Part shown: positions 18,398-22,761 of the stretch, one piece after another | Layout: the number at the start of each line of letters is the position of its first letter | How positions within the stretch are numbered: position 1 is the stretch's first letter | DNA from: Marinobacter bryozoorum | GTDB taxonomy: Bacteria > Pseudomonadota > Gammaproteobacteria > Pseudomonadales > Oleiphilaceae | Assembly: GCF_023156245.1 (NCBI RefSeq) | Contig: NZ_JAKZAH010000001.1 | Location: 186,001 to 250,000, forward strand | Length of the DNA: 64,000 bases | Direction of reading: 5' to 3' | Notes under the pieces: generated by a model | Seen by the model: only the letters and a program-made list of their open reading frames with translations | What the model was told of the DNA's origin: nothing | Databases searched by the model: none | Made by a program: the position numbers and the translations under genes

Positions 18398-19375
18398 ATG
18401 TCCGTGGCCTCTGCGGGAATGCATAATCTCGATATCACTCGCTGGCTGGCGGTGGTGATGACGTTGGTCCTTGTTTTGATCAACCCCGCCACGGCGCAGG
18501 ATGCGGCTCCGGGCGGTGATGCCGGGGCCGCCGGGCAGGATGCCGGAGACGGTGAGTCGAAGGAGGGCTCAGGCAAGCCGTCGGTTGAGCGTTACTTCAT
18601 CCGCTCTGCCGGTGACTCGGGCATGCTGGCACAGCGTTACCCCCACCTGGCGGTATGGCTTGAACCGGACGGTGCGCCCCGGGCGCTGGCGCTGGTGGAG
18701 CGGGAGGTCACCGAGGCGGCGAAAGGCGCGGTGGTGCTCCTGGCAGACGAGGGCCAGACGGCAAACCACGCCTTGCTCGCTGGATTGCGTAGCCGTCTGA
18801 CAGAAGCTGGCTGGGCGGCCCTGTCACTGGGTAACAGCCAGGTCAGCCCCGGCCTGCAGCTTGCCAGGCAGCGGGCAGGGGAAGCCGGGTCGAGGTCGGG
18901 CCAGGATAGTTCCGATGAAGGCGAGCCGGTGATGATTGATGTGAATGACCAGGCCGCCGAGGATCTTCTGAAGGCCCATCGGGATGAAGTGAATGCCCGC
19001 CTGGACGCTGCCGTTGCCTGGCTGCAGGAGCGGGATTACTCACAGGTGGTATTGGTCGGGGTTGGCCGCGGCGCGCTGGCGGTCAATGGTTACCTGCCCC
19101 GGGCGCCAGCAGCGGTGTCACGGGTCGCGTGGATTGCGCCGGATTTTGGCAGCCAGGCACCGGGTGAGCTGGTATCCGCCCTTGAGGGCAAGGTAGTTCG
19201 GTTGCTGGATATGTATCCTTCCCGCTCCTCGGCCGGGCCGGGTCGGCGGGCGGCCTTCCGCCGGGCAGGGATGAACGGCTACGAGGCCCTGCCGGTGCCA
19301 TTGGCAGGTGGTGAGTCGGGCCGGCATGCGGCAGCGATCGCCAGTCGCCTTGCGGGTTGGGCTGGCGGAGACTGA
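18398..19375 (+). CDS. DUF3530 family exported protein (alpha/beta-hydrolase-like)
   Basis: A 325-residue protein with a signal peptide (WLAVVMTLVLVLINPATAQ) and a low-complexity Gly/Ala/Asp linker at about residues 35-60. The body has an alpha/beta-hydrolase-like core: GAVVLLADEGQTANH, SQVVLVGVGRGALAVNGYL and WIAPDFGSQAPGEL, the last parts being typical of DUF3530. The GVGRGA motif has no serine nucleophile, so it may be non-catalytic. ATG at 18398. It ends 4 bases before the convergent diguanylate cyclase stop. Confidence 0.75.
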   Translation: MSVASAGMHNLDITRWLAVVMTLVLVLINPATAQDAAPGGDAGAAGQDAGDGESKEGSGKPSVERYFIRSAGDSGMLAQRYPHLAVWLEPDGAPRALALVEREVTEAAKGAVVLLADEGQTANHALLAGLRSRLTEAGWAALSLGNSQVSPGLQLARQRAGEAGSRSGQDSSDEGEPVMIDVNDQAAEDLLKAHRDEVNARLDAAVAWLQERDYSQVVLVGVGRGALAVNGYLPRAPAAVSRVAWIAPDFGSQAPGELVSALEGKVVRLLDMYPSRSSAGPGRRAAFRRAGMNGYEALPVPLAGGESGRHAAAIASRLAGWAGGD

Positions 19376-19379
19376 GACC

Positions 19380-20375
19380 CTACCGGGGGGCCGGAGCCGC
19401 TGCCTTGCGGAGCCTGTTGCGGCCATCGGCCTTGGCCTGGTAAAGGGCGCTGTCGGCGCGGACAAACACATCGCTGACGTCCTCCGCCGGGACGGCTTCT
19501 GCGACGCCACTACTGACCGTGACCGGTGTCGGCGTGTCAGTCATGGCAGCGATGCGCTCCCGCAGCCGCTCGCCCACAACGACAGCCTCTTCCAGTTCAG
19601 TGTCGGGCATAATAACGACAAACTCTTCCCCGCCGATCCGTGCCGCTACATCAATTTCCCGAATGTTGTCCTTCAGAGTGGTAGCGACGGCCTGGAGTAC
19701 CGCGTCTCCAACCGGGTGGCCATGGGTATCGTTAACCTGCTTGAAGTGGTCGACGTCCATCAGCACCAGGGATACCGGTGTCTGGTTGCGTTCCAGCACG
19801 GCGAGCTGGTGGCTGAGGGTCTGTTCGAATACCCGCCGGTTGGCCAGGCCGGTCAGGCTGTCGGTGGTTGCCATGTGCTCGAGTTTGCAGTTCAGTGCCA
19901 GCAGCTCGTCCTGTTTTTCCTGCAGCGACTGCCGGGCCAGCTCCAGTTCCGCATAGGCCTTTTCCTGTTCTGCTACGGCCTGTTCCGCCATTTGCCGGGC
20001 CGACAAAAGCTGCTCTTCAAAGACGTGGCGTTTGTGTATGGCCATAACGGAAAGGTCGTAGCGGGTTTTTCCACCGGCGCCTTCAGTGACGTCGCCGTTA
20101 ATCAGCATTGGCATGTCGGCACCGTGGCGGCTGCGCAGTCGCAGGTAGACCTCACTGGCGTGGCCGTGGTGCTGCAGCAGGGGCAGCAGGCTGGTCAGAT
20201 AGAACATCCGTGCGGCCGGGGAAAGCAGCTGGTCGATGCGCATACCGGGTAGCTTGCGGGGCTCGTACTCCAACCAGTGGGCCAGGGTGCCATTGGCCCA
20301 GGTTATGATGCCGTCCTGCTGAAGGCTGAGCAGTCCACAGGGAAGCCGGTTGATATCGGGCGGGGCCTGCGGCAT
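19380..20375 (-). CDS. PAS-GGDEF diguanylate cyclase
   Basis: A 331-residue cytosolic protein. Residues 10-115 form a PAS-like sensor (GIITWANGTLAHWLEYEPRK), residues 118-168 a coiled-coil rich in Glu/Gln, and 170-320 a GGDEF domain. The active site is GGEEF at 248-252, with LMDVDHFKQVND for metal and substrate. An RxxD inhibitory site (Arg239-Asp242) stands five residues before GGEEF, so product inhibition is expected. It starts 3 bases after the RsbQ-like hydrolase stop, which suggests they work as a pair: the hydrolase may make or carry the signal sensed by the PAS domain. Confidence 0.9.
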   Translation of the reverse strand: MPQAPPDINRLPCGLLSLQQDGIITWANGTLAHWLEYEPRKLPGMRIDQLLSPAARMFYLTSLLPLLQHHGHASEVYLRLRSRHGADMPMLINGDVTEGAGGKTRYDLSVMAIHKRHVFEEQLLSARQMAEQAVAEQEKAYAELELARQSLQEKQDELLALNCKLEHMATTDSLTGLANRRVFEQTLSHQLAVLERNQTPVSLVLMDVDHFKQVNDTHGHPVGDAVLQAVATTLKDNIREIDVAARIGGEEFVVIMPDTELEEAVVVGERLRERIAAMTDTPTPVTVSSGVAEAVPAEDVSDVFVRADSALYQAKADGRNRLRKAAAPAPR

Positions 20376-20378
20376 GGC

Positions 20379-21206
20379 TCAGTCTTTCGCCGCTTCGCTG
20401 GCATGGTCGGTGCGAAGGGCCGCCCGGATACCTGTCACCACGGCCCCGGGGTTGCTCATGTGGGGGTAGTGGCCTGTCGCACCGAGGCGCGTGGTGCGAC
20501 AGGCCGGAAGGTGGTCGCCAAGGTAGGCAACCACCTCTGGCGGTACGATCACGTCCTGCTCGGTGTAGAGGATGTCCACCGGTACCGGTACTGATGGCAG
20601 TAAATGTCTGACATCACTGAGAAAGGTGGCTTCGGCAAATTTGCGGGAAATCACCGGGTCGGCTGCGGCAAAGCTTTGGCGCAGTTTGTCTGCCAGTTCC
20701 GGGCGGTGGCTGTTGGCCATGGCCAGTGGCGAAAGGTAGCCGGCCCATTCGAAATAGTTGTGTTCCATCATGTCCAGCAGGTCGAGGATGTCACGCTCCT
20801 CAAAACCGCCATGGTAGTCCGGCGGATCGTTGATGTAGCGCGGTGACGGGCCGATGGCAATGATCTGTCGGAAATGGTGGGGCGCTTTTCGCGACGCCAG
20901 CATGGCGATGGTCCCGGATACCGAATGCCCGACCAGTGTCACGGGGTCGCTGCTGCTGGCCGCAAGCACCTCGACCAGGTCTTCCGCGTAGCCGTGCAGG
21001 GAGGAGTGACGGCTCCGGTCCCAGGCGCCGAGGTCGGACTGGCCACAGCCGGTGATGTCAAACAGTACAAGGCGAAAATCAGGCGCAAGGGCTTCCGCGA
21101 CGGGTTGCCAGATCTGGTGGTCGCAGCCGAAACCGTGAGCCAGTACCAGGGTATGATCGCCCTCGCCGAGGGTTTGCACGTGGTTGCGCCGGATAACGTC
21201 TTGCAT
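20379..21206 (-). CDS. RsbQ-like alpha/beta hydrolase
   Basis: A 275-residue protein from the ATG at 21206 (MQDVIRRNHV), aligned by eye to the start of Bacillus RsbQ; a GTG 21 bases upstream is less likely. Triad Ser95 in GHSVSGTIAMLAS, Asp218 in TEQDVIVPP and His246 in TGHYPHMSNP. The run IGPSPRYINDPPDYHGGFEE is diagnostic of the RsbQ/KAI2/D14 branch. RsbQ is required for RsbP, a PAS phosphatase, in the Bacillus energy-stress pathway. Here the partner is a PAS-GGDEF protein 3 bases downstream, so a hydrolase-to-PAS signal feeding c-di-GMP is inferred. Confidence 0.88.
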   Translation of the reverse strand: MQDVIRRNHVQTLGEGDHTLVLAHGFGCDHQIWQPVAEALAPDFRLVLFDITGCGQSDLGAWDRSRHSSLHGYAEDLVEVLAASSSDPVTLVGHSVSGTIAMLASRKAPHHFRQIIAIGPSPRYINDPPDYHGGFEERDILDLLDMMEHNYFEWAGYLSPLAMANSHRPELADKLRQSFAAADPVISRKFAEATFLSDVRHLLPSVPVPVDILYTEQDVIVPPEVVAYLGDHLPACRTTRLGATGHYPHMSNPGAVVTGIRAALRTDHASEAAKD

Positions 21207-21323
21207 AGTGGTTCCGGGGGAGGTCACCTTTTGAGATATGTGTCACGTTTTCGGAGAGAGTCTGGCCGGGGGCTGTGAAAAACGCCAGTATCGATACGTT
21301 ATGTTTTGTGACATTCCCGGTGC

Positions 21324-22073
21324 TTAGCGGGTCAGCCGTTCCCGGCGCTTGACCACCTCCCAGGCTTGCTGCAGCCGCAGCAGCTGGTCCCGGGCGTGGG
21401 CCTGTTCTGCCGGTGTAAGATCGTCCCGGAGTTTGTCCGGATGGTAGCGGGAGACTTCCCGGCGATAGCATTGTTTCATATGGAAGAAGCTGTCGCCGGC
21501 CTCGACGCCGAGGATGTGATAGGCGTCCCGCAGGGTTTCCGGTTTGGGTGGCGCAGGGGCAATCCACACCTCCTGGCGGTAAACCCTGAAAATCCGGTCC
21601 ATGGCCGTCAGGGGCAGGCCCAGCTGATAAAAGCCGTCTTCGCAGCGATAGCGACGGGGTTTTTCGGGGGCGCCGAACAGCTGGGCGCCATGACAAAGAC
21701 AGAGCCCTATCAGCAGGCTGGTGCGCTGGGGCCAGGGGCCCTGCAAGCGGAAGCCTGCGAGCATCAGGCCGGACAGCTCGGCACTGTCACGGCCCTGGTG
21801 GAAACGCCGGATCGCCTTGCGGCGTTGTCCGGGCGCAAGGGCCAGGCCGGTCATCAGTTGTTCGGCAAAGCCGATGTCTTTCTCGGTGACACGGCCGTCG
21901 GCTCTGGCCAGGTAGCCAAGGCAGTAAAAGAGCGCGTTGCGGGCACCGCGACCGACCCGGTGGCGGCTGACAAGTTCGCCCGGCCGGTGGCGGCAGGCGA
22001 CGAAACCGGCCAGCAGTTCGTCCAGCAGGGCCTCGGTGCGCGGTGGCAGGGTTTGGGGGGCGCGTCCGCTCAT
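21324..22073 (-). CDS. DjlA-like co-chaperone (TerB-like domain plus J domain)
   Basis: A 249-residue protein. Residues 45-140 form a TerB-like helical region (ALFYCLGYLARADGRVTEKD), and the J domain occupies about 182-249, with HPD at 211-213 in SRYHPDKLRDDLTPAE. The HPD motif shows it can stimulate DnaK ATPase. Unlike E. coli DjlA, no N-terminal transmembrane segment is present from the ATG at 22073. It starts 7 bases after the murU stop and completes the amgK-murU-djlA-like operon. Confidence 0.82.
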   Translation of the reverse strand: MSGRAPQTLPPRTEALLDELLAGFVACRHRPGELVSRHRVGRGARNALFYCLGYLARADGRVTEKDIGFAEQLMTGLALAPGQRRKAIRRFHQGRDSAELSGLMLAGFRLQGPWPQRTSLLIGLCLCHGAQLFGAPEKPRRYRCEDGFYQLGLPLTAMDRIFRVYRQEVWIAPAPPKPETLRDAYHILGVEAGDSFFHMKQCYRREVSRYHPDKLRDDLTPAEQAHARDQLLRLQQAWEVVKRRERLTR

Positions 22074-22080
22074 GGTGCCG

Positions 22081-22761
22081 TCAGGATTGTCTGGTTCGGG
22101 TGAGCAGTTGGTCCAGCTCGGCCAGCCGCAGTGATGTGCCAATGTCCATCCACTGCCCGCGGTGGTGCAGACCGAACACCTCTCCCCGGGCCATCGCCTC
22201 GCGGAGTACCGGCGCCAGCTTGCGGGATCCGGGGGGCAAGCCCTCGAATAACGAACTGTGCAGCAGGCTGATGCCGGTGAAAGTCAGGCGGTTGCTGCCG
22301 GTTGCCTGCACCTGGCCGCTGGCCTCCAGGGCGAAATCTCCCTCCGGGTTGTGGGGTGGGTTGTCGGTCAGCACCAGCATCGCGATACCCTGCCGGGGAG
22401 GCCTGAGCTGCCGGAGGTCCAGGTCATGCCAGATATCGCCGTTGATCACTGCGAACCAGCCCTCGTCCGACTGCAGCAGGGGCAGGGCCTGTATGATGCC
22501 GCCGGCGGTTTCCAGGGGCTCGCCTTCCCGGGACCAGGCGATGGATACGCCGTATTCTTCGCCACTGCCCAGTGCGGACTCCAGCTGTTCGCCGAGCCAG
22601 GCATGGTTAATCACCAGTTCCCGGAAGCCGGCGGATCTGAGTTTGCGGATATGGTGAACGATCAGCGGCTCGCCGCCGGCCTGCAGCAGCGGTTTGGGGG
22701 TCGTCAGCGTCAGCGGACGCATGCGCTCCCCCTTGCCGGCAGCCAGGATCATGGCCTTCAC
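22081..22761 (-). CDS. murU: N-acetylmuramate alpha-1-phosphate uridylyltransferase
   Basis: Makes UDP-MurNAc from MurNAc-1-P in the peptidoglycan recycling route that bypasses GlmU. 226 residues. The nucleotidyltransferase signature AMILAAGKGERMRPLT is at the N-terminus and the metal-binding VINGDIWHD follows near residue 105. The start is the GTG at 22761: the reading V-K-A-M-I-L-A-A-G matches the MKAMILAAG start of known MurU, and the GTG overlaps the amgK stop (GTGA). The longer frame upstream lies inside amgK. Confidence 0.9.
   Translation of the reverse strand: MKAMILAAGKGERMRPLTLTTPKPLLQAGGEPLIVHHIRKLRSAGFRELVINHAWLGEQLESALGSGEEYGVSIAWSREGEPLETAGGIIQALPLLQSDEGWFAVINGDIWHDLDLRQLRPPRQGIAMLVLTDNPPHNPEGDFALEASGQVQATGSNRLTFTGISLLHSSLFEGLPPGSRKLAPVLREAMARGEVFGLHHRGQWMDIGTSLRLAELDQLLTRTRQS

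Follow-up and report, generated by a model that had tools for sequence, protein, structure and literature searches.

An RsbQ-type hydrolase gene paired with a PAS-GGDEF diguanylate cyclase gene in Marinobacter bryozoorum

The two genes and their products

We begin by considering the locus as it lies in the window, that is, the whole stretch of 64,000 nucleotides of Marinobacter bryozoorum DNA that was analysed. A gene for an RsbQ-type alpha/beta hydrolase (20379..21206, minus strand, ATG start, 275 amino acids) is followed on the same strand by a gene for a PAS-coil-GGDEF diguanylate cyclase (19380..20375, ATG start, 331 amino acids). Both reading frames are confirmed at these positions, as is the gap of three bases that the first-pass annotation had read between the hydrolase stop and the PAS-GGDEF start. 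The two are the sole genes between a DUF3530 gene (18398-19375), convergent with the pair, and a DnaJ-domain (djlA-like) gene (21324-22142). A scan for promoters and terminators at the locus gave no informative signal.

The hydrolase had been called RsbQ-like with a full triad, and this holds in sequence and in fold. Its closest solved structures are Bacillus subtilis RsbQ (1wom, E 7e-72) and Olei00960 (3qvm, E 4e-67), followed at E 7e-50 and weaker by plant KAI2/D14 proteins, the karrikin and strigolactone receptors, and a reconstructed ancestor of such proteins. The AlphaFold2 model (mean pLDDT 94.0) has RsbQ as its best fold match (TM 0.94, 43% identity); the plant receptors among the fold matches listed are mostly at 30-37% identity. 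The triad consists of S95 (20922-20924), D218 (20553-20555) and H246 (20469-20471), all read on the minus strand, and none of the three residues varies among 100 aligned PAS-linked hydrolases, the window's included. RsbQ has a single strong match in the window genome, with the next hydrolase at E 1e-7. No fusion of hydrolase and PAS was found among the hydrolase frames of 122 loci, and of five viral-contig stretches that matched a pattern none encoded a relative.

The PAS domain (20031..20357, minus strand, residues ~7-115) falls below the cut-offs of the Pfam PAS models (PAS_4 17.3 bits, PAS_9 14.9 bits) and scores 131.8 bits against a profile of the PAS domains from this set, a profile that includes the window's own row. 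The model of the PAS-GGDEF protein (pLDDT 95.2, pTM 0.66) has a PAS fold, a single helix and a GGDEF domain. A search for a solved structure of this PAS class gave none that is close (best chain E 8e-4), and the domain was compared with RsbP by sequence and class residues; on these it is of the RsbP type, in line with the kinship to the RsbP PAS on which the first-pass annotation had relied. The window keeps C13, L16, L51, F58, P65, E75 and P89, which correspond to RsbP C10, L13, L48, F55, P62, E72 and P86, while R56 and Y59 of the window stand at the positions of RsbP Q53 and C56. The text of the B. subtilis study (PMC3183031) gives L48, F55, E72 and P86 as class residues important in RsbP, with F55A abolishing the contact between RsbQ and PAS. 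Three of the window residues, F58, S62 and P65, are carried by the F-alpha helix (20166..20219, minus strand, residues 53-70 in the model).

At residue S62 the window departs from the class. It stands at the RsbP Y59 position, where 95 of 101 aligned proteins have Tyr or His, the exceptions being the window's Ser, one Gln, one Val and three Phe. In the text of the same study (PMC3183031), Y59 is one of nine positions of a 75% consensus, and Y59A in B. subtilis makes the RsbQ contact weaker in yeast, gives a null phenotype and leaves the protein at 50-60% of normal. Since Y59 is only one of the nine, S62 weakens membership in the RsbQ-PAS class, as judged from sequence, and does not exclude it; because S62 sits where a change to Ala weakened the contact, the contact with the hydrolase could be altered here.

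Which of these residues mark the class can be seen from 12 PAS proteins, also from this genus, whose scores lie under the gap in PAS scores. None of the 12 has F58, P65 or E75, two of them having Asp at position 75, and they end in D-x-T/S where the window has AIHKR and no DIT motif. C13 (12/12), N28 (12/12) and R116 (11/12) are common to these outgroup proteins and are therefore not class-specific. Eleven of the 12 come from genomes without a hydrolase at E <= 1e-30; the twelfth (L201) lies ~4.5 kb from the hydrolase/PAS pair of G034. The window genome itself has one PAS of this class among 31 candidates scored.

The helical linker is continuous in the monomer model (19866..20030, minus strand, residues 116-170) and starts at the conserved R116. 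For the RsbQ-PAS module, the published criterion is a coiled coil of at least 21 residues leading to the output (stated in the text of PMC3183031). From R116 to the DxLT aspartate the window has a spacing of 56 residues; among 51 GGDEF proteins the spacing is 56 in 38 and 28 in 13. Of 48 kinases, 24 have a spacing of 30, 37, 44, 51, 58 or 65, 17 have 61, five have 156-247, and in two the position was not located; 17 of the 41 kinases with a spacing below 100 fall off the heptad pattern. The spacings of all 51 GGDEF proteins fit whole heptads, but the GGDEF linker length changed only once on the tree, and a heptad rule for the linker is no more than suggestive.

The GGDEF domain (19413..19871, minus strand, residues 169-321; Pfam match E 3e-48) contains GGEEF (19620-19634, residues 248-252) and the I-site REID, an RxxD motif (19650-19661, R239/D242), both intact as first described. 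In the A3 alignment of 45 proteins, the window's among them, GGEEF is found in 44 and both I-site residues in 32. Judged by its motifs, the window protein keeps the cyclase active site and the feedback site.

Linkage, co-occurrence and history of the pair

As a check, the first-pass annotation had proposed a search of other genomes for RsbQ homologues that adjoin PAS-GGDEF genes, and it had named a lack of such linkage as a refutation. Adjacency of hydrolase and PAS is conserved: in public genomes, an RsbP-type PAS gene lies directly downstream of the hydrolase in 78 of 80 loci, a figure that holds for the nearest relatives, since the best 80 of at least 590 relatives were kept, on hydrolase similarity alone. 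Of the two exceptions one is at a contig end, and one, in Marinobacter maroccanus, is without the PAS gene. Because these loci were chosen by the hydrolase and 78 of them have the PAS directly downstream, the pairing is beyond chance. By their record titles the linked loci span Bacillota, Bacteroidota, Gemmatimonadota, Acidobacteria, Cyanobacteria, Chloroflexi, Verrucomicrobia and Proteobacteria. Among 42 loci from the genus, order and class samples (window included), the PAS gene is downstream in 26, upstream in 3 and neither in 13, so that it is adjacent in 29 of 42. Of these same proteins, 59 went into the PAS profile behind the counts; A2 excludes seven short or broken PAS frames (L058, L062, L064, L074, L076, L089, L101) as well as L057, and G186 (L044) is covered with 1.5 kb flanks only.

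The co-occurrence is asymmetric. In the order sample of 390 genomes, 22 have both genes, none has the class PAS only, seven have the hydrolase only (29 hydrolase genomes in total) and 361 have neither (Fisher p 3e-30, a value that ignores relatedness); by coordinates, the class PAS adjoins the hydrolase in all 22. Scoring took in at most 11 PAS and 6 hydrolase candidates per genome, with cut-offs of E <= 1e-14 for the PAS and E <= 1e-40 for the hydrolase; one counted PAS match stands at 1.2e-15, and below E 1e-14 the PAS scores fall from 58.6 to 45.2 bits. In the genus sample of 124 genomes, the hydrolase is found in 10 (E <= 1e-30) and the class PAS in 8 (E <= 1e-14). In all 8 genomes with the PAS the hydrolase gene lies beside it; seven of them belong to the 10, while in the eighth (G096) the adjacent hydrolase is split by a frameshift, its best piece reaching E 2e-30. 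Within these samples, the class PAS never occurs without the hydrolase and the hydrolase does occur without the PAS.

The PAS-free copies deserve a description of their own. The triad is identical in 14 of 14 hydrolase copies without an adjacent class PAS; of the 13 genomes in which such copies lie, 11 lack any class PAS at E <= 1e-8. Since such copies exist, the hydrolase can have a role other than with the class PAS. Three Marinobacter hydrolases (L129, L130 and L131, the last being the same as L057) have 50-53% identity to that of the window, an intact triad and no class PAS adjoining; at E <= 1e-8 no class PAS turned up in two of their genomes, G104 and G038, and in all three loci a transglutaminase-like gene, so read from its sequence, lies convergent downstream of the hydrolase. 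In another PAS-free Marinobacter copy (L137, genome G028), which is perhaps decaying, the HGFGC motif reads NGFGW and the triad is kept.

Gene order can also be reversed. In three loci (L133, L134, L142), a PAS-GGDEF gene of 588-602 amino acids lies upstream of the hydrolase, and its end touches the hydrolase frame or reaches slightly into it; from its length the product would be of the GGDEF-EAL kind.

We next consider how the pair came to the window. The comparison covers 29 of 100 other genus genomes with a DUF3530 match, and all 29 loci have gph, rpe, the DUF3530 gene, the DnaJ-domain gene and a murU-like gene, with hydrolase and cyclase absent. The gap from the DUF3530 gene to the DnaJ-domain gene is at most ~460 bases at these loci and ~90 bases at the nearest of them (G062, rpe 98.7% identical). 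In the window, the corresponding two-gene insert extends approximately over 19376..21285 (no strand assigned), its right edge being set by eye. The simplest reading is that hydrolase and cyclase arrived as a unit; the alternative is that the pair was lost in all the other genus loci. Base composition gives no foreign mark on the insert, with GC of 0.61-0.66 in windows over it. On the tree, the window hydrolase groups (SH-aLRT 94) with Zobellella, with a member of another family (G397), with the Marinobacter pair of G034 and with three PAS-free Marinobacter copies. The DUF3530 gene itself varies, with 31-64% identity in the 29 genus loci, between the conserved rpe and DnaJ-domain genes, and the interval seems to tolerate change.

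Co-evolution and the exchange of outputs

Does the PAS domain follow the separate hydrolase or the GGDEF domain of its own chain? In a mirror-tree comparison of 45 pairs (45 of the 47 GGDEF pairs, L069 and L096 being outside A3), r is 0.892 for hydrolase-PAS, 0.761 for PAS-GGDEF within one chain and 0.736 for hydrolase-GGDEF, with partial correlations of 0.756, 0.341 and 0.196 respectively. The order is the same in the 29 Bacillota pairs (0.931 vs 0.751) and in the 16 others (0.793 vs 0.491), and the excess of hydrolase-PAS over PAS-GGDEF vanishes or turns negative in none of 1000 genome bootstraps and in 6 of 200 column bootstraps. When the 100 pairs of every output type are pooled, r for hydrolase-PAS is 0.759; L151, where the PAS gene is not adjacent, is excluded from the pair analysis. 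By these distances, the PAS tracks the hydrolase more closely than it tracks its own cyclase, a result that favours regarding hydrolase and PAS as a single sensor.

At the level of residues, covariation between the two proteins has no clear enrichment in the F-alpha helix: among the 30, 50, 100 and 200 strongest pairs, 4, 10, 14 and 35 fall there, against 4.1, 6.9, 13.7 and 27.5 expected. Residue-level covariation between hydrolase and PAS was set aside, its best pair (hydrolase 248, PAS 120) resting on at most two independent changes.

Among 101 PAS proteins there are 51 with GGDEF, 48 with a histidine-kinase ATPase (L151 among them), one with a SpoIIE-type phosphatase, 4 with EAL and 11 with a receiver. 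A tree of 121 hydrolases, from which L057 (the locus also listed as L131) and L063 (at the end of a contig) are excluded, requires at least eight changes among the known outputs (GGDEF, GGDEF-EAL, kinase, phosphatase), and with all eight output labels, missing and unclear included, 21 changes vs 56.7 in shuffles. Outputs cluster on the hydrolase tree, yet they have been exchanged several times.

Two variants of the arrangement were seen in passing. In two Paenibacillus loci (L058:5833-6303, L062:5815-6303), the hydrolase is followed by a stand-alone PAS and coil of 157-163 amino acids that ends in a stop with no output domain, beside an oppositely oriented 642-amino-acid gene that is terpene cyclase-like by eye. 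In Planomicrobium okeanokoites (L084:6889-8673), a second RsbQ-like hydrolase comes just after the hydrolase/PAS-GGDEF pair, and then a STAS-domain protein (Pfam) that is RsbR-like by eye.

Sensor models and comparison with known systems

We turn our attention to what the pair may do. The first-pass annotation had proposed an RsbQ-PAS pair with a c-di-GMP output; the pair stands, with its conserved linkage and RsbP-type PAS, and pairings of this kind have been in print since 2011. That a small molecule is read by the PAS, as the annotation also proposed, is a candidate reading. Nadezhdin, Brody and Price, in the text of their 2011 paper (PMC3183031), describe the RsbQ-PAS module from 45 pairs, with outputs of PPM phosphatase, histidine kinase and diguanylate cyclase. 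Because that module already includes diguanylate cyclases, the pairing of hydrolase and PAS-GGDEF is itself not new. The same text has direct contact between RsbQ and PAS demonstrated, and leaves undecided whether hydrolase or PAS is the sensor. A 2025 eLife paper, in the part relevant here, again describes a coupling to kinases and cyclases, and it presents a predicted RsbQ/RsbP complex. Listings of open-licence papers brought up no study of the function of a cyclase-type pair. The present analysis adds that co-occurrence is asymmetric, that coupling is stronger between the two chains than inside the one, that the locus holds a two-gene insert, that the hydrolase also exists in PAS-free copies, and that the window departs from the class at S62.

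Each part of the pair is intact and close to typical of its class, and the two are adjacent, inherited together and co-evolving. We hold it probable that they form an RsbQ-PAS module, in which direct contact controls the cyclase, whichever partner senses; the co-evolution supports a tight coupling of hydrolase and PAS, and fits both sensor models. Within such a module, we give about even chances to the hydrolase as the primary sensor (Model 2 of the 2011 paper). The hydrolase would bind, and may slowly hydrolyse, a small hydrophobic molecule, and the occupied hydrolase would contact the F-alpha side of the PAS dimer. This contact could shift the register of the helical linker and switch the GGDEF pair on or off, in a manner comparable to that described in the text on light-regulated cyclases (PMC10396304), and the molecule would thereby be reported to the cell as a change in c-di-GMP.

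The hydrolase as sensor is ranked more likely than its main competitor within the same module (Model 1 of the 2011 paper), where the hydrolase makes a product or cofactor and passes it into the pocket of the PAS, which then does the sensing; this we take to be possible at clearly lower probability. The invariant triad of the 100 linked hydrolases speaks for such a delivery, as do the null phenotypes of RsbQ triad changes in B. subtilis (text of PMC3183031), and the co-evolution fits it too. However, the upkeep of the triad needs no PAS recipient, because the 14 PAS-free copies keep it equally and most of their genomes have no class PAS. Moreover, the RsbP C56 position has no conserved His or Cys, being Phe or Tyr in 79 of 101 proteins and His in 5.

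A bolder form of the sensing hydrolase, which we regard as a long shot, makes it the bacterial counterpart of KAI2/D14: its occupancy by a lactone-like molecule, perhaps from the cell or its neighbours, would set c-di-GMP, the contact surface would have been re-tooled in this clade at the Y59 position, and the PAS-free copies would signal through another partner.

It is improbable to a still greater degree that the PAS-GGDEF protein has drifted and works alone, with the hydrolase as a leftover neighbour. The S62 residue, which with one Gln and one Val makes up the odd residues among the 101 apart from three Phe, would suit such a drift, but L51, F58, P65, E75 and P89 are all kept, the hydrolase is intact, and a hydrolase adjoins the PAS in every one of the 22 class-PAS genomes of the order sample. 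That the two are an esterase and a cyclase, unrelated and sharing an ordinary operon, is scarcely credible: with 45 GGDEF-domain matches in the window genome a chance neighbour could arise, but the linkage counts, across many phyla with one PAS class and changing outputs, contradict it.

The cue of the RsbQ-PAS module is called mysterious in the text of PMC3183031, and a 2023 review calls the plant KAI2 ligand undiscovered. A compact pair with a c-di-GMP output suits a simple reporter screen for a ligand.

Finally, we compare the pair with known systems. With RsbQ-RsbP of B. subtilis it shares the RsbQ fold and triad, the arrangement of PAS, predicted coil and output, and the order of Q then P; the window output, however, is GGDEF (c-di-GMP) and that of B. 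subtilis a PPM phosphatase for the sigma-B pathway. With KAI2/D14 it shares the alpha/beta hydrolase fold and the Ser-Asp-His triad that is found in these plant receptors. The partners of KAI2/D14 include F-box proteins, not PAS domains, and the pair of the window is not known to respond to butenolides.

The nearest match is the RsbQ-PAS module, with which, as the text of PMC3183031 describes it, the window shares a hydrolase gene directly upstream, an N-terminal RsbP-type PAS, the lack of a DIT motif, a linker modelled as helical and a diguanylate cyclase. Unlike the consensus of that module, the window has Ser and not Tyr or His at the RsbP Y59 position, and Marinobacter is not named in the main text of that paper, figures aside. 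With the LOV-activated diguanylate cyclases, as presented in the text of PMC10396304, the pair has in common a sensor, a helical linker with an apparent heptad pattern and a GGDEF domain, and these cyclases too fall into two classes of linker length, set apart by whole heptads. They sense light within one chain, whereas the input in the window would come from a separate hydrolase.
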